This document shows positions 1-64,000 of a stretch of DNA of 64,000 bases, piece after piece. Both the position numbers and the translations under genes were made by a program. A model generated the notes under the pieces. It searched no databases and had not been told where the DNA came from. It was given only the letters and a program-made list of their open reading frames with translations. Each line of letters begins with the position of its first letter. Positions within the stretch are counted from its first letter, which is position 1. The stretch is from Pontibacter chinhatensis (GTDB lineage: Bacteria; Bacteroidota; Bacteroidia; Cytophagales; Hymenobacteraceae), in assembly GCF_900113285.1 (NCBI RefSeq), contig NZ_FOOT01000009.1:1-64000 (forward strand). The letters are read 5' to 3'.

Positions 1-2
1 TG

Positions 3-71
3 CAGCGGATAAAGAAAAACATCGCTAAATTAGACCTCAAGCCTGAAGAACTGGGCTTTGCAACGGCCTGA
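3..71 (+). CDS. 3' end of an unidentified gene
   Basis: An open frame enters from the left edge and ends at TGA 69-71. The 22 visible residues (QRIKKNIAKLDLKPEELGFA, then TA) are charged and helical-looking. Too little is present to name a family. It converges with the minus-strand lipoprotein gene that follows, 14 bases away. That this is the true coding frame is likely because the other two plus-strand frames are stopped within the first 30 bases. Confidence 0.5.
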   Translation, partial: QRIKKNIAKLDLKPEELGFATA

Positions 72-85
72 GAAATAAACGTTAG

Positions 86-418
86 TCAGGATTTAGGCAG
101 TAATCGATGACTCTCATCTACCAATCTTTCAATGGCTGAGTTTGCAGTCAGAAGAGCATCTTCAAACTTCCCCAGTTTAAATTCCATTTGTGACTTCCAG
201 AGGGCAGCTTCCATGTTTGCAGGGTCAATAGTGACAGCCTTACTAAAATGCACTAAAGCTCTTTCTGTTACTGCCTTCTGATTCCCACTTGCTTGCTGAA
301 GTACTTCAATTCCGTTTTTGTAGGCTTCCTGACTTTGTCTTTCTGTAATATCCGACTGACATGAAACGACTAAAAAAGTTAAAACAATTACTAAGCTCAT
401 TTTCATAATGAAGTTCAT
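86..418 (-). CDS. Small TPR-like lipoprotein
   Basis: A 110-residue protein with a short hydrophobic signal segment ending in a lipobox-like VVSC, so it is probably a lipid-anchored envelope protein. The rest contains about two helices with tetratricopeptide-like character: one around ALVHFSKAVTIDPANMEAAL and one around KLGKFEDALLTANSAI. Such short TPR lipoproteins usually act in protein contacts, but no partner is evident here. The gene is AT-richer than its neighbours. Its upstream region carries a 29-base repeat (451-479) found again upstream of another AT-rich orphan gene at 27973-28001. The start could also be the Met at residue 5 or 7. Confidence 0.7.
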   Translation of the reverse strand: MNFIMKMSLVIVLTFLVVSCQSDITERQSQEAYKNGIEVLQQASGNQKAVTERALVHFSKAVTIDPANMEAALWKSQMEFKLGKFEDALLTANSAIERLVDESHRLLPKS

Positions 419-450
419 TCTATTTTTGAAATCTTTGCCAACTGGTGTGT

Positions 451-479
451 AGCAGTAAACCTACGCTTATCTGTACTAT
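451..479. repeat. 29-base intergenic repeat, copy 1
   Basis: This 29-base segment matches 27973-28001 with two differences. Its shared core is GTAAACCTACGCTTATCTG. It is flanked by the imperfect arms GTGTAGC and GCTGCAC, which can pair. It lies just upstream of the minus-strand lipoprotein gene at 86-418. The function is unknown; it could be a hairpin, a recombination site or a promoter-region element. Confidence 0.6.
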
Positions 480-521
480 GTACGAAGCTGCACTTCCTCT
501 CAAGGAAAGCCCATCATACCT

Positions 522-743: not shown

Positions 744-745
744 AC

Positions 746-7363: not shown

Positions 7364-7387
7364 GCAAAGTATAAGTATATACTTTGC
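7364..7387. repeat. Inverted pair of the AAGTATA word
   Basis: A perfect 10-bp inverted repeat (GCAAAGTATA, loop AGTA, TATACTTTGC). It lies between the small membrane protein gene and the M19 dipeptidase gene, both on the minus strand. It could fold as a hairpin or serve as a two-fold symmetric binding site. It is one of four such inverted pairs in the window. Confidence 0.7.
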
Positions 7388-22250: not shown

Positions 22251-22790
22251 AAAGCTCAAGCTATCGAACCTGTTCCCAGCCTTTGGGTTGAGCGCCTTGT
22301 GAGATCCGGTGCCCGTCAAGGGCATGCCGAGCGCGAGCGAGGCAAGGAGGGAACACAGCGCGATGCCCGAAGGCGAGGCCTCCCGGCCTGGGAGGGCACC
22401 AAAGCTAGAGATACAACAGTAGCTTATGTAAGCTTGGAGGATGAGCGGCAGCTAGAAAGGATAGCTTGCTTCAAGAGGAAGGAAGCGTGAGCTATGGAGG
22501 TATAGCCAAAGTATAAAGTATGGCTTTTCAAGCCAGTCGAGGCACAGACTCGACCCAATAATAAGATACAAGTCTGAAGACTTGCGCCAGATAAGTATAA
22601 AAGTATAGCCAAAGTATAAAGTATAACTCCTGCTTCGGAACAAACCCGGAGAAGCCGGAATTTTAGTAATTTCCTCCTTATCTTTGCACTAACCGTCAAA
22701 AAGTCAGGCAACAAAAGGCTGGCAAGAGAGTTGTATTAAGGAATAGGTACTGTTTTTGCGGTACGCATCACCAAAAGACAAAGCTTTACG
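22251..22790. other. Gene-free stretch before the DUF4834 gene
   Basis: This stretch holds GC-rich non-coding sequence up to about 22400, a 22-base direct repeat at 22500-22521 and 22603-22624 that contains two AAGTATA-type words, and a TATCTTTG promoter-like box at 22679-22686. The box lies about 105 bases before the next start codon, which leaves room for a leader. I see no gene or structured RNA that I can name. Confidence 0.5.
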
Positions 22791-37868: not shown

Positions 37869-37876
37869 ACCTTAAC

Positions 37877-40030: not shown

Positions 40031-40032
40031 CC

Positions 40033-40099
40033 ATACTTTTTTAAAGTATAAAAACGGCGCGGCCCGAAGCATATTACTGCTTCGGGCCGCGCCGTTTTT
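40033..40099. terminator. feoB terminator preceded by an inverted AAGTATA pair
   Basis: A perfect 7-bp inverted pair, ATACTTT and AAAGTAT (40033-40049), overlaps the start of a very strong terminator. That terminator pairs AAAAACGGCGCGGCCCGAAG (40050-40069, plus CA) with TGCTTCGGGCCGCGCCGTTT (40078-40097, plus TT), leaving a six-base loop. Confidence 0.93.
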
Positions 40100-44004: not shown

Positions 44005-44014
44005 GAGCAAAGAG

Positions 44015-45451
44015 ATGAAAAAGATTCTGATATTCTTGTTCTCGATGGTGCTGGTGGCATCATGCGTGGATGATTTGGATGATTATAATGTGGATCCGAA
44101 GAGAACGACAGAGGCGCCGCCTGCAACACTTTTTACCAATGCGGTGCTGAGCGTATCGGATGTGCTGGCTACGCCAAATGTGAACTTCAATAACTATAGG
44201 TTTTATGTGCAGCACTGGGCTTCGACCCAGTACGTGGATGAGCCCAGGTATAACATGGTGCAGCGGCTTATCCCACAGAACATGTGGCAGGAACTGTACC
44301 GTGATGCCCTGATAGATCTAAAAGAAGCCAAAAGCCTGGTGAATGAAAATGAGTTTTTGGAGGCAGGCGAAAAGAATAATCAGCTGGCGCAAATAGAGAT
44401 GATGGAGGTGTATACCTGGTTCGTGATAGTGACAACCTGGGGTGATGTTCCCTATACAGAGGCGCTTGATCCAACAAACGCTTTGCCCGTTTATGACGAT
44501 GACCAGGCAATTTACAATGACCTCATCAGGCGTCTTAACACTGCGATAGGGCTGATAGATCCTGGTTCTTCAGGCTTCGAGGAAGGCGACCTGTTTTACA
44601 ACGGAGACATGACACAGTGGTTGAAGTTTGGTAATTCCCTGAAGTTGAAGATGGGCATGGTGCTGGCGGATGTAGACCCGGGCCAGGCCAGGACGTTAGT
44701 GGAGGAGGCTGCACCGAACGTGTTTACGAGTAATGCAGATAATGCCGTTATCCAGTACCTGGATGCGCCACCTAACAACAACCCGATCTCCGACAACGTG
44801 AAGGGACCCTTCACATCCAGAGAGGACTATGTCGCCGCCAGCACGCTGGTTGATGTTATGAATGAGCTGAATGACCCGAGAAGGCCGGAGTATTTTACCA
44901 CGGTTAACGGGGAGTTCATTGGCGGGCAGTATGGTTTCCAGAATACCTATACTTCCTTCTCAACGGTGAGTGCCAAAATAGCGGCTCCTAACTTCGAGGC
45001 GCTGATGCTGGACTACTCAGAAGTAGAGTTCCTGCTGGCAGAGGCCGTGGAAAGAGGCTTTAATGTGCCAGGCACAGCCGAAGAGCACTATAATAACGCC
45101 ATCACTGCCTCTATTACCTACTGGGGTAGAACAGCGGAGGAAGCGGAAGCCTACCTGTCTCAGCCTGGGGTAAATTATACTTCAGCTCCTGGCGACTGGC
45201 GGCAGAAGATTGGAACCCAGAAATGGATTGCGCTCTATAACCGTGGTTTTGATGCCTGGCTGGAATGGCGAAGGCTGGACGCCCCGGATTTACAGCCACC
45301 GGCTGTTCCTGGCTCAGTTGAGTTGATAATTCCAAAGCGCCTGATCTACCCTGTCAATGAGCAGACGCTTAATCCTGAGAACCGCGCTGCTGCAGCAGCA
45401 GCTATCGGAGGGGATGAGGCAAGCACCCGGCTTTTCTGGGACGTCCAGTAA
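44015..45451 (+). CDS. susD: SusD/RagB family nutrient-binding lipoprotein 1
   Basis: A 478-residue outer-membrane lipoprotein with lipobox VASC (Cys at residue 17). It belongs to the SusD-like_2 branch (PF12771): after the linker DDYNVDPKRTTEAPPATLFTNAV come TPR-like helical stretches such as QNMWQELYRDALIDLKEAK and QIEMMEVYTWFVIVTTWGDVPYTEALDP, and later TQKWIALYNRGFDAWLEWRR. It caps the SusC channel and binds the ligand. It starts ten bases after susC1 and ends before a terminator. Confidence 0.94.
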   Translation: MKKILIFLFSMVLVASCVDDLDDYNVDPKRTTEAPPATLFTNAVLSVSDVLATPNVNFNNYRFYVQHWASTQYVDEPRYNMVQRLIPQNMWQELYRDALIDLKEAKSLVNENEFLEAGEKNNQLAQIEMMEVYTWFVIVTTWGDVPYTEALDPTNALPVYDDDQAIYNDLIRRLNTAIGLIDPGSSGFEEGDLFYNGDMTQWLKFGNSLKLKMGMVLADVDPGQARTLVEEAAPNVFTSNADNAVIQYLDAPPNNNPISDNVKGPFTSREDYVAASTLVDVMNELNDPRRPEYFTTVNGEFIGGQYGFQNTYTSFSTVSAKIAAPNFEALMLDYSEVEFLLAEAVERGFNVPGTAEEHYNNAITASITYWGRTAEEAEAYLSQPGVNYTSAPGDWRQKIGTQKWIALYNRGFDAWLEWRRLDAPDLQPPAVPGSVELIIPKRLIYPVNEQTLNPENRAAAAAAIGGDEASTRLFWDVQ

Positions 45452-45483
45452 TAGGGCTAAGATTAACAAAAAGGAGTAATAGG

Positions 45484-45526
45484 CTTCTTCATTGGAAAAG
45501 GCTCCCGTATTCGGGAGCCTTTTTTG
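45484..45526 (+). terminator. Terminator after susD1 with a shared upstream box
   Basis: The stem AAAAGGCTCCCG with CGGGAGCCTTTT and loop TATT is followed by T residues. The 16 bases before it, CTTCTTCATTGGAAAA (45484-45499), recur exactly before the terminator of susD2 (51117-51132). Confidence 0.9.
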
Positions 45527-46268
45527 TTATACCTCAAAGAGAAAGTGCCATAAATCTACTCAATCATCCCCACCGGCAAAAAATCCAGGTCTTCAAAACA
45601 CTTACTTAAAAAATTTTAACAAGCAGGTATATAACATTTTGCCAGGCAGTGGCACTGCTAAATTATAGTCTATATTAGATAAATTAATATTTAGGTTATC
45701 CAAAATTTGCTTTCTGCGTAGATTAACCTCTGAGGTGCAATCGGTACAAGCCATGTGCTGCTCTTCAGAAATGAATATTTATAGTGTTATCAAATAATTG
45801 CTAAAACACATGAGCAGTTCTCTCTTGATAATCAGCTAGATGTTTTAGAAATAACAAATTAATAAGTATTAGTGCAGGAGTAGAATATTGAAAAAAGTAA
45901 ATAATAATCTTGTGATTATAGTTGCTTTTTGATAAACTTGTTGAATCATCTCACCTAAACAAAATTTTTATGGCGAACTCTTTACTCATTCTTGCCTCAC
46001 CCTCGGGGTGTCTGAAGCAACCTCCATCTATTCGATTCATAACGTCATAGTTACTGCCTCTGAGGTAAGTGTAGCTGCTGCCCCACATATTCGCGTGTAG
46101 GGTAGCGTGCACCTGTTTCGGAGTTGTTGGCATACGGCTGCTGCAAAGGCTACCATGCTTTTGTAGTTAGCATGGCGTAGCCTTGCCCTTAGGCTACGTT
46201 ACACGGGGCTTTTACTGCCTTGTTTTAGCTTGTAAACTACATTAACTCTCACTTTAAACTAAAACACA
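45527..46268. other. Gene-free, AT-rich region upstream of susC2
   Basis: A 742-base gap with a very AT-rich centre (about 45600-45960) and a more balanced right part that looks like a long 5' leader. It contains the alternative-hairpin segment described separately (46147-46198). The minus-strand open frame at 45951-46133 resembles no family and is probably chance. Confidence 0.5.
46147..46198 (+). promoter_or_regulatory. Three-segment alternative hairpin in the susC2 leader
   Basis: Segment 1 (AGGCTACCATGC, 46147-46158) pairs with segment 2 (GCATGGCGTAGCCT, 46170-46183) with a two-base bulge. The second half of segment 2 (CGTAGCCT) also pairs perfectly with segment 3 (AGGCTACG, 46191-46198). 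The two hairpins exclude each other, as in attenuators or riboswitch-type leaders. It lies 71 bases before the susC2 ATG. Confidence 0.55.
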
Positions 46269-49200
46269 ATGAAGAAAATTCTATTTCTGAGCCTCTTGCT
46301 TGTGACGGCCCTGTTGCACCAGGCCATGGCACAGGTAAGGGCTATTACTGGTAGAGTAACGGATGCTGCTACCAGCCAACCTTTACCAGGCGTTACAGTT
46401 CTGGTTAAAGGAACCACGGTAGGTACTGCTACCTCAGCAGATGGTACTTATTCTATTAATGTGCCAGAAGGAGGTAACACCTTGGTGTTCAGTTTTATTG
46501 GTTACCAAACAGTGGAGCGCCCTATTGGCTCCAGTAATACAGTAGACGTGAACCTGCCTGTAAACACGCAGCAACTTAGCGAGGTGGTGGTAACTGCTCT
46601 TGGTATTGCCAGAGAGGAAAAATCAATCGGTTACTCTTCTCAGACTGTAAGCGGTGAGGAGCTAAGCCAGGTGCGCGAGACAAACGTTGTAAACTCGCTC
46701 TCCGGTAGAATTGCCGGTGTGCAAGTTGGTACTAACTCTGGCGCTATGGGTGGTTCTGCAAGGGTTACCATGCGCGGTGTAAGCTCTATCAGCGGCAACA
46801 ACAACGCCCTGTTCGTAGTGGATGGTGTGCCAATCGAGAACTCCAACACTAACTCCACCAACCAGCAGCGCGGTGGCGGTGGTTACGACTACGGTAGCGC
46901 CATCCAGGATATCAACCCAAATGATATTGCTGAGATAACTGTACTGAAGGGTGCCGCAGCAACATCGCTTTACGGTAGCCGTGGTGCCAACGGTGTTATC
47001 GTAATCACAACTAAGAAAGGAGAGAGAAAAGGTGGTGGTATAGGCGTTACCTATACGCTTGGCCTAACCATGGACAAAGTATACATACTGCCTAAGTATC
47101 AGAACAAGTATGGCGGTGGCTATGCGCTCTCAAAGCTATACTATAATGAAAATCCAGAGGCCTTCCCGGAAGGAAGACAGGGTGCCTATGACGATGGCGA
47201 TGGAAAGGGTAGCTATGACCTGATCCCTGACTACGATGTGGACGAATCCTGGGGACCTAAATTTGAAGGTCAGCTTTACCGTCCTTACTGGAGCTGGGAT
47301 AAGGAGTTAGGTAACCCTAACTTTGGTGAACTGGCAAGATGGGAGGCGCAGCCAAACAACATCCGCGACTTCTTCGAGACAGGTACTACTCTGACTAACT
47401 CTATCGCCGTGGATGGTGCTAACGACAAGGGTTCTTTCCGTTTGTCTTACTCGAACCTGGACCAGAACTTTATCCTGCCTAACTCAGAAATGACCCGTCA
47501 TAACCTGAGCTTCAACGGTGGTTACAAAGTAACCGACAGGCTGAATGTGTCTGCCAGCGCCAACTACGTAACGCACGAGGCGAAAGGTCGTCCGGGTACT
47601 GGTTATGATGGCTCAAACGTACTGCAGCAGTTCACGCAGTGGGGCCAGCGCCAGATAGACAACGATAAGCAGAAAAACTACATGCTGCCAGACGGTACGC
47701 AGTTGTCATGGAACCGTACTTCTTGGGATAACGTGGCTCCTAAGTATTCTAACAACCCTTACTGGGTGCGTTATAAGAACTACCAGAACGACGGTAGAGA
47801 CCGTATCTTCGGTAACGTGAACGCGAACTACAAAATCACGGATTACCTGAGCGCTGACGTAAGAGTATCAACAGATACCTACTCTGAAACACAGGAAGAG
47901 CGTATCGCTCCAGGTTCTCAGGAGATTTCTGACTACACGCTGTACAAGATCGACTTCATGGAGAACAACATCCAGGGTTTATTAAACTTCAACAAAGACC
48001 TGTCTGATGATTTCTCTCTGAATGCATTTGTTGGTGCTAACAGAATGACACGCACCCGCAATATATTCGCAGGTTCTACGGTAGATGGTCTGAGCTCAGA
48101 AGTATACAACCTGGGTGCATCAGTAGGCCGTCCTGCTATTACGGACGAAAAAACAGAGAAGCAGATAAACTCCCTGTTTGCTAGTGCCTCATTCGGTTTC
48201 CGTGAGCAGTTGTTCTTGGATCTGAGCGCCCGTAACGACTGGTCTTCTACACTGCCAGAAGGAGAGAACTCTTACTTTTATCCAGCGGCGTCCCTGTCGT
48301 ATGTATTCACGGACCTGATTGATGCTCCTTGGCTGAACCTGGCTAAAGTGCGTGCAGCCGTAGCACAGGTAGGTAACGACACTGATCCTTACAACACAAT
48401 CCTGACTTACGCGCTGAACACGCCGTTTGGCTCTGAGTCAAGAGTTTCTGTGCCAAACACACTGCCTAACGCAGAGCTGAAGCCAGAGATTTCTACAGAA
48501 TACGAGTTTGGTACTGAGTGGCGTGTATTCGACGACAGATTGGGTATCAATGCGTCATACTACAACAGAAAAACCAAAAACCAGATTATTCCGCTTAGCC
48601 TTTCAGCTGCCACAGGCTTTACCTTCCGCTACATTAACGCGGGTGAGGTGGAAAACAAAGGGGTGGAACTCAACCTGTATGGTACACCAGTAAGAACAAA
48701 TGACTTTAGCTGGGATATCAACCTGAGCTGGGCTAAGAACCAGAACAAGATCATCAAGCTGACCGACGATCAGAAAACAATGGTGATTACGAATGCTCCG
48801 TTTGCAGTACAGCTGCAGGCCCGCGAGGGAGAGTCTTTTGGTTCTATCATCGGATATGACTACCAGTATGATGATCAGGGCAGAAAAATTGTTCTTCCGC
48901 AAGGCTACTATGCTCGCTCTGCTGAGCAGAAGGTAATCGGCTCTGTGCTTCCTGACTTTACTGGTGGTGTAACCAACACGTTCCGCTACAAAGGCCTGAG
49001 CCTGTCAGCGCTGGTTGACTTCCAGAAAGGTGGCGACTTCTTCTCTACTACGCAGATGTTCGGACGTTACTCAGGTATGCTGGAAGAAACTGCAGAAGGT
49101 AGCATACGAGAAGATGGTTTAGTTACTCCTGGTGTGCTTTCAGATGGCACGCCAAATGCACAGGTTATTGACGCCGAAACATACTTCTACGTGAATGGTG

Positions 49201-49478
49201 GCTACAGAATTGGTGCGGCTGACATTATCGATGCAAGCTACATCTACCTGCGCGAGGCGAGCCTTGGTTACAGCTTGCCAAACAGCCTGGTGGAGAGAAC
49301 TCCGTTCAATAGTGTAAGACTGGCGTTTGTTGGCAGAAACCTGTGGCTGATCAAGTCTAACTCTGACCACGTAGACCCATCAAACATTACAAACTCTATC
49401 ACTAACGTTCAAGGCATCGAGGGTGGCGCTTTACCGTCTGTTCGTTCTTACGGATTTACCCTGACGCTGGGACTGTAG
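46269..49478 (+). CDS. susC: SusC/RagA family TonB-linked outer membrane protein 2
   Basis: A 1069-residue SusC homologue, a clear paralogue of the one at 40759. The signal peptide and N-terminal regulatory domain are nearly identical (ITGRVTDAATSQPLPGVTVL ... FSFIGYQTVERPI), and the hallmark EVVVTALGIARE and the plug motif RVTMRGVSSISGNNNALFVV follow. The plug and barrel differ more, so the ligand is probably different. It ends in the aromatic YGFTLTLGL. Transcription and translation are coupled to the susD2 gene 32 bases downstream. The DNA is AT-richer than most of the window. Confidence 0.96.
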   Translation: MKKILFLSLLLVTALLHQAMAQVRAITGRVTDAATSQPLPGVTVLVKGTTVGTATSADGTYSINVPEGGNTLVFSFIGYQTVERPIGSSNTVDVNLPVNTQQLSEVVVTALGIAREEKSIGYSSQTVSGEELSQVRETNVVNSLSGRIAGVQVGTNSGAMGGSARVTMRGVSSISGNNNALFVVDGVPIENSNTNSTNQQRGGGGYDYGSAIQDINPNDIAEITVLKGAAATSLYGSRGANGVIVITTKKGERKGGGIGVTYTLGLTMDKVYILPKYQNKYGGGYALSKLYYNENPEAFPEGRQGAYDDGDGKGSYDLIPDYDVDESWGPKFEGQLYRPYWSWDKELGNPNFGELARWEAQPNNIRDFFETGTTLTNSIAVDGANDKGSFRLSYSNLDQNFILPNSEMTRHNLSFNGGYKVTDRLNVSASANYVTHEAKGRPGTGYDGSNVLQQFTQWGQRQIDNDKQKNYMLPDGTQLSWNRTSWDNVAPKYSNNPYWVRYKNYQNDGRDRIFGNVNANYKITDYLSADVRVSTDTYSETQEERIAPGSQEISDYTLYKIDFMENNIQGLLNFNKDLSDDFSLNAFVGANRMTRTRNIFAGSTVDGLSSEVYNLGASVGRPAITDEKTEKQINSLFASASFGFREQLFLDLSARNDWSSTLPEGENSYFYPAASLSYVFTDLIDAPWLNLAKVRAAVAQVGNDTDPYNTILTYALNTPFGSESRVSVPNTLPNAELKPEISTEYEFGTEWRVFDDRLGINASYYNRKTKNQIIPLSLSAATGFTFRYINAGEVENKGVELNLYGTPVRTNDFSWDINLSWAKNQNKIIKLTDDQKTMVITNAPFAVQLQAREGESFGSIIGYDYQYDDQGRKIVLPQGYYARSAEQKVIGSVLPDFTGGVTNTFRYKGLSLSALVDFQKGGDFFSTTQMFGRYSGMLEETAEGSIREDGLVTPGVLSDGTPNAQVIDAETYFYVNGGYRIGAADIIDASYIYLREASLGYSLPNSLVERTPFNSVRLAFVGRNLWLIKSNSDHVDPSNITNSITNVQGIEGGALPSVRSYGFTLTLGL

Positions 49479-49510
49479 TACTTAGTTAAACGATTTCAAC
49501 CTAGATAAAT

Positions 49511-51067
49511 ATGAAGTTATATAATAAGCTATTGCTTGGGGCCGCGCTCTTCTCTATGGTGTCTTGTACAGAAGACTTCGAGGAGATGAACATCAACCCT
49601 AACCAACCGGCAAACGCAACATCTGCGCAACTGCTGGCAACGGCGCAGTACAACTATGCCACTAACATCGGGGATGCCTGGAACAATGCCCGTATGGGTA
49701 TGTACTATGCCCAGTACTGGTCCTCCACGCAGTACACGGACGAGAGCCGTTACCAGATTCGTGAAGGCGTTAACCAGACCATGTGGAACACTTTCTATGC
49801 AAGTGTATTGCGGGAGTTGACCACTGCTCAGGAAATTGAGGCTGAGAACCAGTTAAATGGCTTCGAAAACCGCATTGCCATTGCCGAGATCATGAAGGCT
49901 ATGACCTTCCAGACTTTGTCTGACATTTATGGAGGCCCGGTACCTTATAGCGAGGCGCTGAGCACAGAGAATGTTACACCAAAGTATGATAACGGTAAGG
50001 ATATTTACATTGGGGTGCTGAACACGCTGGATGAGCAAATCGCTATCCTGGATGAGGCTAGCCCAAGTTTCCAAAGTGGTGATGTCATGTATAGCGGCAA
50101 TGTGGCGCTGTGGAAAAAGTTTGCCAACTCGCTTCGTCTGCGCATAGCCCTGCGCATGTATGACGCTGACCAGGCAACTGCCACAGAGCACATCAACAAG
50201 GCGCTTAACAGCAGTGCAGGCTTTATCTCTTCAAACGCTGAGAGTGCCAAGTTTGCCTGGATTTCAGGAGCGCCTAACAACAATCCGCTGGCCGAGGCTT
50301 ATAAAACCAGGATTGACTTCTCGGTAGCTGAGCCGTTTGTAGATTACCTGCAAAAGTATGACGACCCTCGTATTGCGGTGTTCGCCAGACCATTGGGAAC
50401 AGGCAACCCGCTGGGTTCCAGCTTCTCCCCAATTCTGGATGCAAATGGAAACCCACAGTACGTAGGTGAGCCATACGGTTTAAATGCCGGCAATGGAAAC
50501 TCTAACGGTGATGCTAAAATTGTAAGCTTGCCGGGCGACTATGTAATAGGCGAGACAGCCCCGACTTACATTCTGGCTTATCCTGAGGTTGAGTTCATGC
50601 TGGCAGAGGTTGCTGCCCGTGGTATTGGCGCTACGCCACTAACCGCGAAGCAGCACTATGAGAATGGCATCAAAGCTTCTTTCGAAGAAACTGGCCTGTC
50701 TACTGCAGAGTATGAGGAGTACCTGAAAGAGGTGCCTTACAGCGAGTCTCGTAACTCCAGCACTGCCCCAGATCTGGAAACTGCTCTTGACCTGATCGGA
50801 TCTCAGAAGTGGATCGCCATGTATGGCCAGGGAATCCAGTCCTGGTTTGAGCGCCTGCGCTTGGACTTTGATGACCCATACACAGGAGAGGAAATCTTCG
50901 TAGCCCCTGCTGATGGCTCAGTAGACCCAGACGTGGACATGGTGCCATTCCGTATGAGCTACCCTGTTACGGAGGCCTCTCTGAACGGTACTAGCTATGC
51001 CGATGCAGTTCAGCGTATAGGTGGTAAAAACAGCCTTGGCGTAAAACCTTGGTGGGACGTAAAATAA
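49511..51067 (+). CDS. susD: SusD/RagB family nutrient-binding lipoprotein 2
   Basis: A 518-residue outer-membrane lipoprotein with lipobox MVSC (Cys at residue 19) followed by TEDFEEMNINPNQPANATSA. It has the same layout as susD1: MKAMTFQTLSDIYGGPVPYSEAL, ALWKKFANSLRLRIALRM, and IGSQKWIAMYGQGIQSWFERLR near the end. It is of the SusD-like_2 branch and pairs with susC2. A terminator follows. Confidence 0.94.
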   Translation: MKLYNKLLLGAALFSMVSCTEDFEEMNINPNQPANATSAQLLATAQYNYATNIGDAWNNARMGMYYAQYWSSTQYTDESRYQIREGVNQTMWNTFYASVLRELTTAQEIEAENQLNGFENRIAIAEIMKAMTFQTLSDIYGGPVPYSEALSTENVTPKYDNGKDIYIGVLNTLDEQIAILDEASPSFQSGDVMYSGNVALWKKFANSLRLRIALRMYDADQATATEHINKALNSSAGFISSNAESAKFAWISGAPNNNPLAEAYKTRIDFSVAEPFVDYLQKYDDPRIAVFARPLGTGNPLGSSFSPILDANGNPQYVGEPYGLNAGNGNSNGDAKIVSLPGDYVIGETAPTYILAYPEVEFMLAEVAARGIGATPLTAKQHYENGIKASFEETGLSTAEYEEYLKEVPYSESRNSSTAPDLETALDLIGSQKWIAMYGQGIQSWFERLRLDFDDPYTGEEIFVAPADGSVDPDVDMVPFRMSYPVTEASLNGTSYADAVQRIGGKNSLGVKPWWDVK

Positions 51068-51116
51068 ACAAGTATTTCATAATGAAAGTAAATAACTTAG
51101 AATACTAGGTAGTAGT

Positions 51117-51166
51117 CTTCTTCATTGGAAAAAGGCCCTCGGTTTCCGGGGGCCTTTTCTTTTTTC
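51117..51166 (+). terminator. Terminator after susD2 with a shared upstream box
   Basis: AAAAAGGCCCTCGG and CCGGGGGCCTTTTC pair (one G-T pair) around the loop TTT, followed by T residues. The box CTTCTTCATTGGAAAA (51117-51132) overlaps its 5' side and is identical to that before the susD1 terminator. Confidence 0.88.
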
Positions 51167-51252
51167 GCTGCAATAAACTGCCTGTATCTGGAAATGAAGC
51201 GTCAAGAATAATTATATATCTGCCCAGTATTGTCTTCGAAATTTTATATATT

Positions 51253-51285
51253 TAGGATAGACGATATAAAAATAAGTCTATCCTA
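51253..51285 (+). promoter_or_regulatory. 10-bp inverted repeat overlapping the TonB receptor start
   Basis: TAGGATAGAC and GTCTATCCTA are perfect inverted repeats around a 13-base AT-rich spacer (GATATAAAAATAA). The last base of the right arm is the A of the ATG at 51285. It could be an operator for a dimeric repressor, or a hairpin that hides the start codon in the mRNA. Confidence 0.6.
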
Positions 51286-53642
51286 TGTTAATCAGGATTT
51301 TCAAACTCCTTGTAATAGGGCTGCTGCTGATGCAAGCCGTACAGGCACAACAAGCCGAAGATAAGCAGTACAGGTTATCCGGCGTCGTGACGAATGCGGC
51401 TGGCGAACGACTGGAAGGAGCCTTTATCGTGATTAGGCCCGGTGACAAGGGTGTTCTGACAAACAAGCAGGGGCGCTTTACTACCCGGCTGTCCAATGGC
51501 ACCTATGAGCTTACGTGCCAGTATATCGGGATGGCCCCACTTAAGGAAACCATCGTGCTGGATAATAATAAGGAGGTTGTGCTTAAGCTGGGAGAGCAGA
51601 AAGTTAGCCTGAACCAGGTAGAAATTACCACTAACTCCATCATCGATATCAACTCCGTGCAGATGGGGAGCAGCTTCATGGATCAGGAGCTGCTGACGCG
51701 GATGCCGAAACTGCTCGGTGAGGCCGATGTGATAAGAGCCGTGTCGGCGATGCCGGGCGTAGTAAACGCAGGAGAGGGAACAGCCGGATTTTATGTGCGC
51801 GGCGGAAGCTCTGACCAGAACCTGGTGCTGATGGATGGTGCCCCACTTTTCAACGCCAATCACTTGTTTGGCTTCTATTCGGTTTATAACCCTGACATCT
51901 TAAAAAGCTTTACCCTGCACCGGAGTGGAATATCTGCTGCCTACGGGGGGCGCATTTCTTCTATTCTGGATGTGAGCCTCCGGGATGGCAACACAGAAAA
52001 AATGGAGTATGAGGCAGGTATAACGCCTATCACCGCAAAACTAAGTATAGATGGGCCTCTATCGGATAAAGTAACGGTGCTTGCGGCCTTCCGTGGCGCT
52101 TACCCTAACTACCTGATGAAGCTTTTCCAGAGTGAGAATGTGAAGAACAGCTCAGGCTTTTTCTATGATGGCAACCTGAAGCTGAAGTACCAGCTAAACG
52201 AAAAGAACAGCCTCACCTTCTCCGGCTACCACAGCGCTGATGGCTTTAAGTTTCCCTATGATACTACCTATAGCTGGACCAACACGCTTGGCTCGCTAAA
52301 GTGGACCCATCTGTTTCATAATGATTTTACGGGCTCTGTCACACTGGTGAAGAGCGTTTACCATAACACAGTAGAAGGCATTGCTACAGGCGAAGAGTTT
52401 AAGCTGAACTCAGGTATAGACCTGTCGCAGGTAAAGCTAAACCTGGGCTATTTTGGCCTGCAAAACCATCAGATTGATTTTGGTGGAGAGGCATCAGCGT
52501 ATGCCATACAGCCGGGCGATCTGGTGCCGTACGGTACGTCTAGCCTTAACCGGCGTACTTTGAGAGAAGACAAAGGCTATGAGGCTGCGGCATACATTAA
52601 TGATGAGATAAAAGTCAATGATAAGCTTACCTTCTCGCTAGGGCTGCGCTATTCTCACTTCACGAAAGTAGGGCCTTCTGAAATTTACCGCTACTGGGAA
52701 GGCAGGCCAAAAAACGACAAGTACATTCTGGATACTTTGTTTATAAGTGCAGGCAGTGTGGTGCAGACCTACCAGGGGCTGGAGCCCCGTGCTTCTCTTA
52801 AATACTCACTTACAGAAAATGCTTCCTTGAAAACCGGTATTAGCCGCACCAGGCAGTACATTCAGCTAATCTCTAACACTGCCGCCATCACGCCGGTGGA
52901 TGTTTGGAAGCTATCGAACAGGGACATCAAACCACAGGTGGCTGATCAGGTCTCCTTAGGTTATTTTTACTTGCAGCCGGACAACGTATATGAGTTTAGC
53001 TGGGAGGTATACTATAGGAAGCTGTACAACCAGATAGATTACAAGGATGGTGCTGTGTTGCTGCTGAACCCTAACCTTGATGCGGATTTACTGTTCGGGG
53101 AAGGCCATGCCTACGGATCGGAGTGGCTGGTAAAAAAGAACCAGGGGCGCTTAACCGGCTGGCTAAGCATGACGTATTCCCGAGCCTTAAGAAGAATAAA
53201 AGGGCCAACCAGAGAAGAAACAATCAACGACGGGAAGCTTTACCCCTCTAATTACGACAAGCCTGTCAACCTGAACATCTTTGCCAATTACAAGGCCTGG
53301 CTCAACTGGAACGTGTCCGCGAACTTTACCTACAGTACCGGCAGGCCCATAACCGGGGCAGACTCCTGGTACAGGTACCATGACCAGATATTTGCGAACT
53401 ATGTAGGCCGTAACCAGGCGCGCATGCCGGATTACCATAGGCTGGATCTCTCTTTCAACCGCGAGCCAATCGTCAGGGAAAGGGCAACTTATACCTGGGG
53501 CATCTCTGTCTATAATTTGTATGGCAGAAAGAATGCCTACTCCACCCTGTACCAGCACTACTACGGTGCCCCTGCTGGTGCATATAAACTCTCTGTGATA
53601 GGCATGCCTATCCCTTCTATAAATTTCAATGTTAAATTTTAA
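51285..53642 (+). CDS. TonB-dependent receptor with carboxypeptidase-like domain
   Basis: A 785-residue outer-membrane receptor. A signal peptide (about 1-21) precedes a regulatory-like domain (YRLSGVVTNAAGERLEGAFI ... CQYIGMAPLKETI, about 29-95), then a plug with GFYVRGGSSDQNLVLMDGAP (about 166-185) and a barrel ending in PIPSINFNVKF. It is not a SusC type (the VVVTALG hallmark is absent) and pairs with the DUF4249 lipoprotein six bases downstream, a combination common in Bacteroidota. The ligand is unknown. The ATG is overlapped by a perfect inverted repeat. Confidence 0.93.
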   Translation: MLIRIFKLLVIGLLLMQAVQAQQAEDKQYRLSGVVTNAAGERLEGAFIVIRPGDKGVLTNKQGRFTTRLSNGTYELTCQYIGMAPLKETIVLDNNKEVVLKLGEQKVSLNQVEITTNSIIDINSVQMGSSFMDQELLTRMPKLLGEADVIRAVSAMPGVVNAGEGTAGFYVRGGSSDQNLVLMDGAPLFNANHLFGFYSVYNPDILKSFTLHRSGISAAYGGRISSILDVSLRDGNTEKMEYEAGITPITAKLSIDGPLSDKVTVLAAFRGAYPNYLMKLFQSENVKNSSGFFYDGNLKLKYQLNEKNSLTFSGYHSADGFKFPYDTTYSWTNTLGSLKWTHLFHNDFTGSVTLVKSVYHNTVEGIATGEEFKLNSGIDLSQVKLNLGYFGLQNHQIDFGGEASAYAIQPGDLVPYGTSSLNRRTLREDKGYEAAAYINDEIKVNDKLTFSLGLRYSHFTKVGPSEIYRYWEGRPKNDKYILDTLFISAGSVVQTYQGLEPRASLKYSLTENASLKTGISRTRQYIQLISNTAAITPVDVWKLSNRDIKPQVADQVSLGYFYLQPDNVYEFSWEVYYRKLYNQIDYKDGAVLLLNPNLDADLLFGEGHAYGSEWLVKKNQGRLTGWLSMTYSRALRRIKGPTREETINDGKLYPSNYDKPVNLNIFANYKAWLNWNVSANFTYSTGRPITGADSWYRYHDQIFANYVGRNQARMPDYHRLDLSFNREPIVRERATYTWGISVYNLYGRKNAYSTLYQHYYGAPAGAYKLSVIGMPIPSINFNVKF

Positions 53643-53648
53643 CCTGAT

Positions 53649-54686
53649 ATGCTGAGAGTAACACTCTTGTTTGCGCTTCTGCTCCTGATGTCGGGATGTA
53701 TTGATCCCATCAATATAAAGGATAAAGACCAGCAAAGGCATTTGGTAATTGAGGGTAGCTTTACAAATGACCCGGAGCATAATTATGTGCGGCTGTCATA
53801 CGCTAAACCATATAACAACACTTATATGGAGTACGATACAGCGGCTTTTGTATACGTTAGTAGCATGGATGGAACCACTAGGTATGTATTTGCATACGAT
53901 ACGGCTACCTCGCGCTATTACCCGATTGATGGCTCCGCTGCATACGGGGAACCGGGCAAAGCATATATGCTTCATGTTAGTATCGGCGATTCTGTTTACC
54001 AATCTCCGTGGATAACTATGCCGAGGCCTATTCCTGTGGACAAGTTGCACCTGGAAATGGATGAGCAACTATACGCCTTTAAAGGGGACCGCGAGAAAAC
54101 GCGCTTTCCGGGGTATAAAGTGCTGGTCGATTACCAGGACCCGGCAGGGGAGAAGAACTTCCTGAGGTGGTCGTTTTTGGTAAACTATGAGGTGTTCACA
54201 CAGCCCTGGTACTATATTAATCGATACGGAAAGCCGCAACCCAAGGATTGCTGTGCCAAATGCCTGCTAACAGAAAAGCTGGACAGGTTTAAGGTGGTAG
54301 ACGACCGTTTGACAGATGGCAACAGAGTTATTAACCAGGAGGTGTTGTTTATTCCTTTTTACCGCTACTTCGGCGTGAAGCATAAGCTGAAAATATACCA
54401 ATATACTGTAACGGAGGAGGCTTATGAGTTTTACCGCATTATGGAGCAGCAGAAGGAAGCCACCGGTACTGTGTTCGATCCTCCTCCGGCACGCGTAGTG
54501 GGCAATATGTATAACCCAAATAATGAGCATGAGCAGGTGATTGGCTTCTTTGATGTATCATCGGTTACAGCAAAGGAAATCACCGTGCTTCGCAACGAGA
54601 TAAACCATGGCTTTTTGCCTTACCAGTTCCCCGATGATTGCCTCGAATTGCCAGGATCTACCACAGTGTTTCCGGCAGACTGGTAA
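53649..54686 (+). CDS. DUF4249 domain-containing lipoprotein
   Basis: A 345-residue lipoprotein with lipobox MSGC (Cys at residue 17) followed by IDPINIKDKDQQRHLVIEGS, the start of the DUF4249 domain. Strands such as NYVRLSYAKPYNN and KAYMLHVSIGDSVYQSPWITM and the cysteine pair DCCAKCLL (about residues 200-206) are visible. DUF4249 proteins accompany TonB receptors and probably act at the outer membrane like SusD proteins do for SusC. This is inferred from neighbourhood. Confidence 0.88.
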   Translation: MLRVTLLFALLLLMSGCIDPINIKDKDQQRHLVIEGSFTNDPEHNYVRLSYAKPYNNTYMEYDTAAFVYVSSMDGTTRYVFAYDTATSRYYPIDGSAAYGEPGKAYMLHVSIGDSVYQSPWITMPRPIPVDKLHLEMDEQLYAFKGDREKTRFPGYKVLVDYQDPAGEKNFLRWSFLVNYEVFTQPWYYINRYGKPQPKDCCAKCLLTEKLDRFKVVDDRLTDGNRVINQEVLFIPFYRYFGVKHKLKIYQYTVTEEAYEFYRIMEQQKEATGTVFDPPPARVVGNMYNPNNEHEQVIGFFDVSSVTAKEITVLRNEINHGFLPYQFPDDCLELPGSTTVFPADW

Positions 54687-54689
54687 GCC

Positions 54690-55406
54690 CTATTTGTAAA
54701 TCAAAAACACCGCCGGCTGTTTGTGGATGTCGGGGAGCTTGCCGCGCCACTGGTTTATACTTTTGGTTTGGATGAACTCGTGCTCCGGGGAGGTAATGTT
54801 GGCGGCAATGCAAAGTTTGGTGTCGGGGTGCAGGGTGGCAAGCAGGTCTTCGAGCAGCTTGTTGTTGCGGTAGGGCGTTTCCATGAAAATCTGCGTCTGG
54901 TTGCGCTGCTGCATTTCCTTTTCCAGTTGGCGCAGTGCCTGCAGCCTGTCGCGTTTTTCGATGGGCAGGTACCCGTGGAAGCAGAACTGCTGGCCGTTAA
55001 AGCCGCTGGCCATTAAACTCAGAAGTATAGCCGAAGGACCGGCAAAGGGCACTACTTTTATACTTTTCTGGTGCGCATACTTCACCACTTCGGCGCCGGG
55101 GTCAGCAATGCCGGGGCAGCCTGCTTCTGAAATAATACCGGCATCCATCCCTTGCTCCAGCAGCGGCTTTAAAGAGGACTGTACTTGTGCCGGCGTGGCA
55201 TCCTTGTCCACCTGCACAAACGTTAGCTGCTCAATCACCAGCTCGGGGCAGATGCTTTTCACGAAGCGGCGGGCCGTGCGCAGGTTCTCCACAATAAAGT
55301 AGGTCAGGTGCTGCACCGTGTCCTTTACCTGTGGCGAGATCACCTGGTTCTGCGTATCCTCTGCCAGTATGGTCGGAATTAAGTATAAAGTGCCGGTCTT
55401 TTTCAT
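54690..55406 (-). CDS. RsmI-like SAM-dependent methyltransferase
   Basis: A 238-residue tetrapyrrole methylase-fold enzyme of the RsmI type (16S rRNA 2'-O-methyltransferase I family). It starts MKKTGTLYLIPTILAED and has the motif GIISEAGCPGIADPGAEVVKYA (SAM-binding region, about residues 87-108), AGPSAILLSLMASGFNGQQFCFHGYLP and the later FMETPYRNNKLLEDLL. The typical RsmI is longer at the C-terminus, so this is the short Bacteroidota branch and rRNA target specificity is inferred. I chose ATG 55406 because it follows a TACCTTTG box by four bases; an upstream frame to 55478 reads as repeat sequence. Confidence 0.85.
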   Translation of the reverse strand: MKKTGTLYLIPTILAEDTQNQVISPQVKDTVQHLTYFIVENLRTARRFVKSICPELVIEQLTFVQVDKDATPAQVQSSLKPLLEQGMDAGIISEAGCPGIADPGAEVVKYAHQKSIKVVPFAGPSAILLSLMASGFNGQQFCFHGYLPIEKRDRLQALRQLEKEMQQRNQTQIFMETPYRNNKLLEDLLATLHPDTKLCIAANITSPEHEFIQTKSINQWRGKLPDIHKQPAVFLIYK

Positions 55407-57109: not shown

Positions 57110-58162
57110 TTACACTACTCTTATCAACTTCCCGTCCTTCTCCCGCTCTGTTAGCACGCCCAGCGGCTTCAGTTGCAGGTTATACTTCTCGAAAATTGCC
57201 AGTACCTCCTCGCGGCCTGCCGGGTCAACAGCCACTAATAGGCCACCGCTGGTTTGTGGGTCGCAGAGCAGGTGCTTTTGGTCTGGGGTGAGCTCGGCTA
57301 ACTTATGGCCGTAGCTGTCGAAGTTGCGGTGGGTGCCGCCGGGAATGGCTTTCTGCGCCAGGTACTCCAGCGCCTCCGGTATCACCGGCACTTTATCAAA
57401 GTATACTTCGGCGCTCAGGTTACTGCCCTCGCACATCTCCGAAAGGTGACCCATCAAACCAAATCCGGTGACGTCGGTCATGGCTTTTACCTGTGGCAGT
57501 TGCCCAAGCTCTGCCCCAATCTTGTTGAGCTGCATCATTTGCTGTGGGGCCAGGTGCGCGTGCTCGGGTTTCAGGATGGCTTTTTTCTGGGCCGTAGAAA
57601 GTATACCCACGCCCAGCGGTTTGGTTAAGTATAGCTCGCAGCCGGCAGTGGCCGTGTCGTTGCGCTTCAGGTGTTGGATATCTACCATGCCCGTGACGGC
57701 TAGTCCGAAGATGGGCTCCGGGCTGTCGATGCTGTGGCCACCGGCTAGCGGAATGCCTGTCTCGTGGCAGATGCTGCGGCTGCCTTCTATGACGCGCTTG
57801 GCTACTTCCGGGGCCAGCTTGTCCACGGGCCAACCCAGCACGGCAATGGCCATCATCGGCGTGCCACCCATGGCGTACACATCCGAAATAGCGTTAGCCG
57901 AGGCAATCCTTCCGAAATCATAGGCGTCATCCACAATCGGCATGAAAAAGTCGGTGGTGCTGATAACGGCGCGGCCCTGGCCGATGTCATACACGGCGGC
58001 ATCGTCGCGGGAGCTGTTGCCAACTAATAAGTTTTTCTCCTCCGGGTAGGTGATATCGGTGTGCAGGATGGCGTCGAGCACTTTGGGGGATATTTTGCAG
58101 CCGCAGCCAGCGCCATGGCTGTACTGGGTTAGTCTTATACTTTCGGTGGATGTTTCTTCCAT
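57110..58162 (-). CDS. selD: Selenide, water dikinase
   Basis: A 350-residue SelD that makes selenophosphate from selenide and ATP. It starts [15 protein letters not shown]-like ([20 protein letters not shown]) and has Cys20 and Lys23 in GCGCK, at the positions of E. coli Cys17 and Lys20. Downstream motifs are [36 protein letters not shown] and [18 protein letters not shown]. The active cysteine is coded by a normal Cys codon, not selenocysteine. It begins two bases after mnmH. The neighbour mnmH explains its use: selenophosphate is the donor for tRNA 2-selenouridine. Confidence 0.97.
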
Positions 58163-60620: not shown

Positions 60621-60661
60621 AAATGTATGAAGTGCTGCTACTTCCACCCTTTTTATAGATT

Positions 60662-61180: not shown

Positions 61181-61352
61181 GAGTTTAAGAGTTGGGGTGT
61201 TAGAGAGTTTAGGAGTTACAGTTGCTTAATACGATATTCATGCTTTGCAGCAGCTCCCGGAATCCATTTGATGGCAATGAGAACAAAGGTTCATGCTTCA
61301 TCAACTCTTAAACTCTTTAATTCCCAAACTCCCCAACTCCTCAACTCTCCCC

Positions 61353-61925
61353 ATGCTTTTGCTGCTCGATAACTTCGATTCCTTTACGTACAACCTGGTG
61401 GATTATTTTGGCCGGTTGGGGGTGGAGGTGCAGGTGGTGCGCAATGACGTGCCGCTACAGGAGCTGCAGCAGCTGCCGGTGAAGGGTGTGGTGCTCTCGC
61501 CGGGGCCGGGCGTGCCGCAACAGGCCGGAAGTATGATGGAGGTGATACAGTATTACCATAGCCGTGTGCCGATGCTGGGCATTTGCCTGGGGCACCAGGC
61601 GCTGGGAGAGTTCTTCGGGGCTAGGCTGGAGAAGGGGCTGCGGCCCATGCACGGGAAAATCTCAGAAATTACCTGCGAGCCGGATGCTCTTTTTGAGGGA
61701 CTGCCTCGCACAATGCCGGTGGTGCGTTATCACTCGCTGGTGCTGCGGCAGGTGCCTGAAAGTATAAAACCACTGGCCCATACTGCGGAAGGGGAGTTGA
61801 TGGCCTTTCGCCACCGGGAGCTGCCGCTGTACGCCCTGCAGTTCCACCCCGAGGCGGCCCTGACCACGTATGGCCTGCAGATGCTCCAAAACTGGCTCCG
61901 TATCGTAAAGTTGCTTGGCTCCTGA
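61353..61925 (+). CDS. pabA: Anthranilate/aminodeoxychorismate synthase glutamine amidotransferase
   Basis: A 190-residue class I glutamine amidotransferase of the TrpG/PabA type. It has LDNFDSFTYNLVDYF at the start, VVLSPGPGVPQQAG, the nucleophile Cys78 in GICLGHQALGEFFG, and the late FHPEAALTTYG with the catalytic His. It supplies ammonia to a TrpE or PabB partner for tryptophan or folate synthesis. No partner gene or other trp gene lies close, which favours a folate role or a shared subunit. I chose ATG 61353 because the frame upstream is made of the CTAACTCC-type repeat. Confidence 0.9.
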   Translation: MLLLLDNFDSFTYNLVDYFGRLGVEVQVVRNDVPLQELQQLPVKGVVLSPGPGVPQQAGSMMEVIQYYHSRVPMLGICLGHQALGEFFGARLEKGLRPMHGKISEITCEPDALFEGLPRTMPVVRYHSLVLRQVPESIKPLAHTAEGELMAFRHRELPLYALQFHPEAALTTYGLQMLQNWLRIVKLLGS

Positions 61926-62441
61926 ACCAGTTAAAACTGAAGAAACGCTGAGCCTTTCCGCGTTGACTGAGCCCTTTTCCAGTTGCGGAGAAAGCATTTC
62001 ATCTATAGTATTTTATAAATTGCCCTCATTTGGGATGCTGGTACCCCTCCGTTTTCGGCGGCACTATTGCCCCGTGCGGATTTGCTGCGGCAGCGGCTAG
62101 AAACAGGCGATTTTTTATACTTGCACTCCTGTTGATTAACAAGTGTAACGGCAAAGCATTTTCATGCGATTCTGGCGCGGGAGCAGCATCTGACCGAGGA
62201 ACGGGCAAAAAAAGGCGCTTTGCTAATCTGCTCTATATGCTTCAAATTTGGGTTAGTATTGTTAATATTGCGCGAACATCGGGCTCTTAGGGCTCAGCCT
62301 TTGTTTTTACATGGCAAGCAGGCGAATTTACACTTTTGCGGCACCTGCGGGCTAAGGCAGTTGCGGGTTCCGGTAACCGGTTGCTGCTGTAGAAAGTATA
62401 AGCAAAGGCAGCGCACAGGATTTTTATAAGTTTTTCGATTC
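61926..62441. other. Gene-free stretch between pabA and the hydrolase operon
   Basis: This 516-base gap is of average composition, has two AAGTATA/TATACTT words (near 62116 and 62395) and no TAnnTTTG box close to the next start. I found no open frame with family resemblance, no tRNA-like cloverleaf and no strong hairpin. It may contain remnants of a decayed gene. Confidence 0.4.
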
Positions 62442-63215
62442 ATGAATTTACAAGTCAAACAAGAAGGAGATTATCAGTATATTGATGAGGGAGAAGGAGA
62501 AGTGCTGCTGCTGTTGCACGGGCTTTTCGGGGCACTCAGTAACTGGAACGGCGTTGTAAAACATTTCTCGAAGAACTACCGTGTGGTTATCCCGCTCATG
62601 CCGATTTATGAAATGCCACTGCACAAGGCGGGCGTGCCCGGCCTGGTGAACTTTGTGGAAGGTTTCGTGAAGATGAAAAAGCTGCGGGACCTGACGCTGC
62701 TCGGCAACTCGCTTGGCGGGCATGTGGGGCTGGTGTACACGCTTGATAACCCGACGATGGTAAAGCGCCTGGTGCTTACCGGCAGCTCGGGCCTGTTCGA
62801 GGACTCGATGGGAGGCTCGTTCCCCAAGCGCGGCAACTATGCTTATGTGGAGGAGCGCGTGGGCTATACGTTCTACGACCCCAAAACGGCCACCCGGGAG
62901 CTGGTGGATGAGGTGTTCTCCATTACGAACAGCAACGCCAAGTGCCTGCGCATCATTTCCATCGCCAAGTCGGCCCAACGGCATAACATGGCGAAAGATA
63001 TCACAAACATACAGGTGCCCACGTTGTTAATATGGGGACTGAATGATACTATTACGCCGCCTCTGGTGGCCTACGAATTCAATAGGCTGATTAAGAGCTC
63101 CGAGCTATACTTTATTGATAAGTGCGGACACGCGCCAATGATGGAACATCCGGAGAAGTTTAACAGTATCTTAGAGAAATATTTAGAGAGAACCCCCATA
63201 GCCTCACCTGTATGA
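62442..63215 (+). CDS. Alpha/beta fold hydrolase
   Basis: A 257-residue hydrolase: the oxyanion region LLLLHGLFGALSNWNGVVKHF, the nucleophile elbow GNSLGG (Ser at about residue 89), an acid in LIWGLNDTITPP and the late histidine in IDKCGHAPMMEHP. It belongs to the same broad superfamily as the esterase at 55629 but is not close to it. The substrate is unknown. Its stop overlaps the ATG of the CBS gene (ATGA), so the two are translationally coupled. Confidence 0.9.
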   Translation: MNLQVKQEGDYQYIDEGEGEVLLLLHGLFGALSNWNGVVKHFSKNYRVVIPLMPIYEMPLHKAGVPGLVNFVEGFVKMKKLRDLTLLGNSLGGHVGLVYTLDNPTMVKRLVLTGSSGLFEDSMGGSFPKRGNYAYVEERVGYTFYDPKTATRELVDEVFSITNSNAKCLRIISIAKSAQRHNMAKDITNIQVPTLLIWGLNDTITPPLVAYEFNRLIKSSELYFIDKCGHAPMMEHPEKFNSILEKYLERTPIASPV

Positions 63216-63877
63216 TTGCCGAAGAACTCATCAACCAAATGATACCGCCGCTAAAGCTCTACGACACCGTGGAGAAGGCTTTGCGTTGGATGGATGAGTT
63301 CCGCGTAAACGAGTTGCCCGTGGTGAGCAACCGCAAGTATATGGGGCTGGCCACCGAGCTTAGCCTTATTGAACTGCCCGACCGCACGCAGCCGCTCAAA
63401 GACCTAGAGCTGCAATATAAAGATGTGCACGTGCAGGGACCGCAGCACTTTTACGATGTGATGGAGGCCGCCATCAAAAATAAAATACAAGTAGTGGCCG
63501 TGCTGGACGACGAGCAGGACTACATGGGCGTGATCACGATCAACGATACCTTGGCGGCTTTCGGGCAGATGTCGGCGCTGCAAGGCTCGGGAAGTATACT
63601 GGTGCTCTCCATGCCCGAGCGCGATTACTCGCTGGCCCAGATCAGCCGCCTGATAGAGGAGGAGAACGTGAAGATCCTCAGCGCCTACGTGTCGCCGGAC
63701 GAGCTGGACCCTTACAAAATCAAGCTCACGCTCAAGCTCAACACCAACGACCTGAGCCGTATCATTGCCACCCTGGAGCGCTTTGAGTACCGCATTACCG
63801 CCCAATTTAACGACAACACCGAATACGACGTGGGCCGCGACCGGCTCGACATGCTCTTTAAATACCTCGATATTTAA
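63212..63877 (+). CDS. CBS domain protein with ACT-like C-terminus
   Basis: A 221-residue protein with two CBS domains in tandem (about residues 1-125: AEELINQMIPPLKLYDTVEKAL, and YKDVHVQGPQHFYDVMEAAIKN then QDYMGVITINDTLAAFGQM), which bind adenosine nucleotides as energy sensors. The remaining part (SILVLSMPERDYSLAQISRL and KIKLTLKLNTNDLSRIIATL) has the beta-alpha-beta pattern of ACT-like domains. It lies in an operon with the hydrolase (4-base overlap) and with the next gene, whose ATG overlaps its TAA. Confidence 0.88.
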   Translation: MIAEELINQMIPPLKLYDTVEKALRWMDEFRVNELPVVSNRKYMGLATELSLIELPDRTQPLKDLELQYKDVHVQGPQHFYDVMEAAIKNKIQVVAVLDDEQDYMGVITINDTLAAFGQMSALQGSGSILVLSMPERDYSLAQISRLIEEENVKILSAYVSPDELDPYKIKLTLKLNTNDLSRIIATLERFEYRITAQFNDNTEYDVGRDRLDMLFKYLDI

Positions 63878-64000
63878 TGCTGGCGCGGATGCTGCTGCGG
63901 ATCCTCCCTCTTATACTTATACTTTTATCCGGAGCCGCTGCGCTGGCTAACCCTTGCCAGGAACCTGCCGTGGTAATCACCGGTATCAGCCTGTCGGGCA
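63877..64000 (+). CDS. 5' end of an exported protein gene, truncated by the window
   Basis: The ATG overlaps the TAA of the CBS gene (TAATG), so it is the third gene of the operon. The visible 41 residues are a signal peptide (MLARMLLRILPLILILLSGA, cleavage likely after ALA) and the start NPCQEPAVVITGISLSG. The stretch VVITGISLSG resembles the first strand of a POTRA domain, as in BamA/TamA-type outer-membrane assembly proteins; that is only a hint. The tandem ATACTTATACTT within the signal peptide is another pair of the AAGTATA word. Confidence 0.65.
   Translation, partial: MLARMLLRILPLILILLSGAAALANPCQEPAVVITGISLSG

Follow-up and report, generated by a model that had tools for sequence, protein, structure and literature searches.

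The window, the whole 64,000-nucleotide stretch analyzed here, is the beginning of contig NZ_FOOT01000009.1 of Pontibacter chinhatensis. It is marked by the heptamer AAGTATA and its complement TATACTT, which recur both inside genes and between them. The copies and associated features are as follows.

1..64000, no strand assigned: 154 copies of AAGTATA/TATACTT, with AAAGTATAA as the favoured form.
34998..40050, no strand assigned: stretch with 13 copies, covering genes for a Mur ligase/alanine racemase fusion and FeoB (word count, Pfam).
18951..21764, + strand: carB, with five copies; basis of the genus tree (word count).
22593..22625, + strand: cluster of four copies in a single orientation (word count).
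7367..7384, no strand assigned: three overlapping copies, the last two making the palindrome AAGTATATACTT (word positions).
57399..57408, no strand assigned: two overlapping copies, equal to the palindrome AAGTATACTT (word positions).
40676..54690, + strand: stretch poor in the word, with 7 copies over 14 kb compared with 147 over the remaining 50 kb (word count, Pfam, alignment).

Dinucleotide shuffles of the window predict 5.66 copies of the heptamer, and the highest of 100 shuffles gave 12; the third-order Markov expectation is 25.3, a value itself inflated by the word. The base 3' of the heptamer is A in 58% of copies, G in 23%, C in 13% and T in 6%, and the favoured 9-mer occurs 47 times versus 2.5 expected under the third-order Markov model. 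The same model predicts 13.6 copies of the variant AAGTATG, which the initial annotation had also called frequent and which is present 44 times. The whole assembly (5,072,663 bases) contains 11,627 copies of AAGTATA (5,623 forward and 6,004 reverse), about one per 436 bases, versus 360 (169 and 191) for the reversed-word control. The heavy over-representation reported in the initial annotation is thus confirmed and larger than claimed, and its counts of 13 and 5 copies in 34998-40050 and carB are exact.

Open reading frames (ORFs) of the window were called mechanically; 102 copies lie inside them, 50 between them and 2 on their edges. Coding copies are sense (42) and antisense (60) and use all three frames in each orientation, in agreement with what had been noted from the letters. 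Density is 1.84/kb within ORFs versus 5.91/kb between them, three times higher in intergenic DNA. Shuffling synonymous codons among the window genes gave a mean of 8.9 copies and a maximum of 16 in 200 shuffles, versus the 102 real coding copies. The shuffling controls and the coding counts therefore reject base composition, dinucleotide content and codon usage as the source of AAGTATA; codon or dinucleotide use was one of the explanations on which the initial annotation would have given up its claim. The copies are unevenly spaced along the DNA. The word is asymmetric and not a palindrome, overlapping palindromic pairs being a minority of copies. Longer repeated words unrelated to the heptamer also occur in the window, among them AGGTCGCGAC with six copies and CAGACTCCCC with four. 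Ten window proteins were run through Pfam, which checks only in part the earlier statement that the window holds no competence or restriction gene.

The closest named match of the carB protein is that of Pontibacter mucosus DSM 100162 (99% identity). The genus was represented by 50 genomes as grouped by the search tool, from each of which up to 20 kb around carB was compared, followed by whole-genome counts; below, G000 is the genome of the window, G013 is P. mucosus, its near twin, and L numbers are fetched loci. Among 119 genomes counted (G000 included), high AAGTATA counts are confined to the genus, and in 69 genomes of other genera the word never exceeds the reversed-word control by more than a factor of about 2.5. 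Within the genus, AAGTATA is present at 4,114-11,818 copies in 23 of the 50 genomes, AACTATA at 6,094-13,168 copies in seven, and AGGTATA at 5,748-9,303 copies in 12. Three of the AACTATA genomes (G027, G033 and G046) are also among the 23 with AAGTATA, and another AAGTATA genome, G043, additionally has 3,531 copies of AACTATA. In total, 39 of 50 genomes hold one of the three words at more than 4,000 copies, versus 226-838 copies of the reversed-word controls in dialect-bearing genomes. The 11 genomes without any word above 4,000 copies are G002, G007, G024, G025, G026, G028, G034, G037, G041, G042 and G045. Looser, weaker words are found in two of these, which are sisters on the carB tree (96/90): GGTATA in G037 (3.5 to 4.5 times the expected count, depending on the first base, over 79 kb; AGGTATA reaches 3,132 copies genome-wide) and TATATA in G042 (3.8 to 6.2 times expectation, over 79 kb). 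Both keep the TATA core, which is common to all dialects and is mostly followed by a purine. Titles and abstract beginnings among the matches listed in the open-access literature mention no word of this kind for Pontibacter.

A carB tree, with good support for 27 of its 50 inner branches but not for the deep order, places the AGGTATA genomes in a single clade of 12 (100/100) and the AACTATA genomes in a clade of seven (98/93), whose sister, G030, carries AAGTATA (99/99). When the three genomes with both words are pooled, G030 matches 16 of 45 alignable AAGTATA sites versus 0 of 45 AACTATA sites; in the mixed genomes AAGTATA is therefore old and inherited, and AACTATA recent. Judged from these sequences, genomes with both words are transitional. 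In-place conversion of old words is unsupported as the main route between dialects: among 84 AACTATA sites in four AACTATA genomes, only 4 carry AAGTATA in G030, although at 13 of 150 AAGTATA sites in the genomes with both words G038 or G031 has AACTATA, which is the most frequent single change at those sites. Whichever mechanism applies, the finding of dialects holds.

Several other repeats were observed in the same loci. In seven AACTATA loci (L090, L091, L093, L102, L103, L172 and L173), which hold 497 copies of the word in total, 50 neighbouring pairs overlap as the palindrome AACTATAGTT, an overlap far commoner than any other short spacing there. Varied enriched 8-mers such as GGTACTAC, ACTGGTAC and ACAACTGG occur in L116 and L151 (G007), L111, L147 and L148 (G045), L125, L145 and L146 (G034) and L104 (G022); GGTACTAC has 22 copies in 40 kb of G007. 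These are not one fixed longer repeat, as the joined 14-mer is found seven times in G045 and 0-1 times in six other genomes counted, and their GTAG ending is reminiscent of REP elements. The Rufibacter immobilis locus L026 has a local excess of CCTAAACG (18 copies versus 0.8 expected), plus overlapping words.

Copy positions were compared in aligned DNA of relatives. G000 and G013 are 91% identical along 53 kb of alignment. Counted in both directions, 244 of 293 heptamer sites (83%) are the same in the two genomes, versus 60% of 821 sites for sampled permuted control words, and the heptamer ranks 19th for conservation among 577 heptamers with at least 30 sites. Orthologous copies are thus conserved beyond permuted words; a comparison of copy positions between related strains had been proposed in the initial annotation. 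Conservation is graded by the next base: 155/170 for AAGTATAA (A), 52/66 for AAGTATAG (G), 25/37 for AAGTATAC (C) and 9/13 for AAGTATAT (T), with AAGTATAA the most conserved of these 8-mers at 91%. The words of the other dialects are unconserved in this pair (AACTATA 12/24, AGGTATA 6/21). AGGTATA ranks 4th of 55 heptamers in the pair G048-G040, and the rank in the pair G009-G017 is 6th of 40. In 19 aligned genomes, the denser the word is genome-wide, the better shared AAGTATAR sites are retained compared with controls (Spearman coefficient 0.90); this is descriptive only, the p-value being untrustworthy because the genomes are related. Retention is not above controls in G020, G022, G025, G045, G037 and G042, and falls short of significance in G001, G012 and G036.

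The word is scarce in certain parts of the genomes. Nine of ten stretches from second contigs of G001, G020 and G021 have 0.05-0.55 copies/kb and one has 1.0/kb. On the main chromosome of G021, seven of ten stretches have 1.85-2.25/kb and the other three 0.35-0.8/kb, all three with G+C below 48%. We infer plasmids in the case of the second contigs and islands in that of the three low-GC stretches. The word-poor stretch of the window (40676-54690) encodes, by Pfam, two pairs of SusC/SusD-like proteins and a TonB receptor accompanied by a DUF4249 protein; it is probably acquired DNA, because identity to the closest relative, P. mucosus, is 80% up to 46529 and the remainder is almost unaligned. 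The scarcity in second contigs, islands and this stretch suggests that the word is missing from newly acquired DNA, which fits every model where copies need chromosomal residence time.

Our tentative interpretation, which we hold with less than even confidence, is that the word serves as a self-recognition mark in DNA uptake, similar to the DNA uptake sequence (DUS) of Neisseriaceae but read by a different, pilus-free competence machinery with a putative reader. A surface or periplasmic DNA-binding protein would prefer fragments with the word of the clade, and DNA would enter via ComEC, aided by a ComEA-like protein with multiple HHH motifs, and then recombine. Imported fragments would carry the word above chance, so that word alleles spread and are restored and copies build up in the core chromosome. 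Drift of reader specificity in the three bases before the TATA core would then let a new dialect accumulate while the old one decays. A little more tentative still is the wider proposal of an independently evolved code for self and non-self in uptake, with at least three dialects and a pilus-free reader, whose specificity has switched within one genus and in which some genomes are mid-switch. Uptake was among the options of the initial annotation; the parallel is strengthened by clade-specific dialects. No DNA receptor was identified.

The search for competence genes that had been suggested was positive in two parts. A comEC match is present in all 50 genus genomes, as is an HHH_3 match, with an open HHH_3 frame of 304-346 amino acids in 49 of 50; the HHH protein of G039 has three HHH_3 motifs and matches the ComEA repeat model. 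Both genes are broken in G022, a single-contig genome (loci L180/L206/L207 and L224): comEC carries two stops and a frame change, and the ComEA-like HHH gene has three stops spread over three frames. In this genome 47 of the 54 compared ORFs are intact, and the five flagged besides comEC and HHH are possibly not real genes. AAGTATAR is kept no better than controls in G022 (33/81 versus 257/636, odds ratio 1.02), and at the same sites in its sister G039 it is kept at 53/81 versus 335/636 (odds ratio 1.69, p 0.019). In a 20-kb alignment, the 8-mer in G022 is kept at 6/53 versus 76/613 for controls.

A number of results weigh against the uptake reading. A search with T2SSE (PF00437), which left ComP and other pilus genes outside its scope, found no full-length PilB/PilT/GspE-type ATPase in the 50 genomes: a short weak match occurs in all 50, above the cut-off in three, the best of them reaching 25.9 bits across about 60 of the 370 positions. 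ATPases of the type IV pilus and of type II secretion were therefore rejected as the machinery, so the known ComP route seems closed. DUF5689, a domain of a Riemerella surface protein, was rejected, being patchy (22 of 50 genomes) and not found in G000; frames of 1099-1299 amino acids are present in 10 of 50 genomes, and in G045 (C59:209902-221263) one of 1299 amino acids lies about 10 kb from comEC. The difference between G022 and G039 has a z of 1.5 in the test above (0.9-1.7 over four versions), the 7-mer is not clearly neutral in G022 (odds ratios 1.23-1.78, the highest in the 20-kb alignment), and G022 has nearly the same number of lineage-specific words (24 of 79 alignable) as G039 (26 of 104). 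The word is not kept in G020, G025 and G045, although their comEC and HHH frames are open, and G001 and G012, with 6,108 and 6,185 copies and both frames open, show no significant retention. In G009 and G018 the comEC frame is broken yet words are dense; the break in G018, an AACTATA genome (L173), lies near residue 540 and may reflect an error in sequencing. Heptamers of equal GC content, a tighter control than permuted words, are on average 72% conserved between G000 and G013 (top 91%), and AACTATA ranks just 30th of 87 in the pair G038-G031, which therefore gives no clear support. Even spacing, expected if one word per fragment sufficed, is not seen. Single carB loci of other genera gave no comparable word that passed the filter, L026 excepted, and for Riemerella, excerpts of PMC7965970 list A-rich 10-mers and establish no functional DUS-like word.

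An alternative that we regard as unlikely, while retaining it as a rival, is that a vertically inherited DNA methyltransferase modifies the word, methylation-linked repair or selection accumulates copies, and dialects follow changes in its target domain. A mixed form, in which uptake requires the methylated word as it does in Campylobacter, is possible. The density of 2.3/kb and the uneven spacing fit methylation, and in cyanobacteria alternate highly iterated palindromes (HIPs) go with matching methyltransferases (PMC4390886, in excerpt). That the word is not a palindrome counts against methylation. MmeI-type (Type IIL) enzymes read non-palindromic sites, such as TCCRAC for MmeI (PMC4833311, in excerpt). 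Three fetched PF07669 frames of about 1162-1181 amino acids are MmeI-type methyltransferases; they are 78-81% identical among G000, G006 and G049 (parts fetched), and their three 4-kb stretches hold 18, 10 and 10 words. However, the target domain is only 48-64% identical, versus 84-96% for the other domains, among these genomes with the same word; the enzyme is therefore a poor candidate for a common reader and was rejected as such. The gene, with its fast-diverging target domain, is itself word-rich (L246, L247 and L248), and related sequences are found in plasmids from many bacteria; 78 records match at E ≤1e-30, none of them with as much as 60% identity. PF07669 is patchy over the 50 genomes: frames of 1160-1215 amino acids (23-41 bits), the size of the three confirmed ones, occur in 14, plus a 614-amino-acid frame in G017; none is listed in G013, the near twin of G000, and two are in the word-poor G024, although some may be missed because these matches are near the reporting limit. 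PF01555 is absent from G000 (present in 31 of 50 genomes), and PF02384 gives a single 289-amino-acid match in the word-rich G006. The methylation site suggested initially thus found no fitting enzyme in PF01555, PF02384, PF07669 or the MmeI-type enzyme of three genomes, in a genus-wide search that ran without PF00145, PF02086 and the MmeI Pfam families.

Less likely again, and likewise raised initially in the form of a nucleoid-protein site, is that an abundant chromosomal protein acting in nucleoid structure, repair or recombination binds the word; its specificity would drift between clades, and selection for chromosome function would keep its sites. Conservation graded by the +1 base, the use of both orientations, the rise in density from about 1.8/kb in ORFs to about 5.5/kb between them, and the scarcity in newly acquired DNA are all consistent with such a protein. 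Strand polarity is absent: of the neighbours at least 200 bp apart, 301 pairs share a strand and 282 do not; replication polarity and a Chi- or KOPS-like polar site are thereby rejected. Such sites would, moreover, usually be constant within a genus, and there is no candidate protein. Mutation bias or biased gene conversion alone, another option raised initially, is very improbable: the higher density between genes speaks for it, but copies change less, not more, than control words, single changes hit all seven positions and include transitions and transversions, and two dialects are separated by a transversion (AAG versus AAC).

The closest functional likeness of the Pontibacter word is to the DUS dialect system, yet it is not filed as a member because the pilus machinery of the known systems was not found in the ATPase search and uptake here is only proposed. 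Word density in Pontibacter is above that of DUS. The Neisseriaceae DUS form clade-specific dialects sharing a core (PMC3630211, in excerpt); Pontibacter is similar in its thousands of copies of a short non-palindromic word, its clade variants with a common core and a distribution consistent with phylogeny. It differs in its Bacteroidota host, its shorter AT-rich word, its lack of a full-length PilB/PilT-type ATPase match and its only putative role in uptake, and closely spaced inverted copies of the terminator kind are not typical of it. Like HIP1 and the alternate HIPs (PMC4390886, in excerpt), the word is repeated at very high numbers throughout the genome, and some lineages have lost it while others carry a different word instead. 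HIPs, however, are GC-rich palindromes with cognate methyltransferases, and the Pontibacter word is AT-rich, non-palindromic and without a match among the methyltransferases searched. In Riemerella anatipestifer, also of the Bacteroidota, transformation requires ComEC and an HHH-domain protein, both with counterparts in Pontibacter; four essential proteins are unlike those of well-known machineries, and the authors call the machinery unique (PMC8459023, in excerpt). The DUF5689 domain of the Riemerella surface protein, by contrast, was not found in G000. If the uptake reading is true, the Bacteroidota would have a sequence-specific DNA receptor unrelated to ComP. To our knowledge, dialect systems of iterated words are limited to Neisseriaceae, Pasteurellaceae and, with methyltransferases, cyanobacteria. 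Pontibacter adds a further lineage, with three clear dialects, transitional genomes and one lineage with broken competence genes, in which the origin, spread and switching of such words can be tested by comparison.

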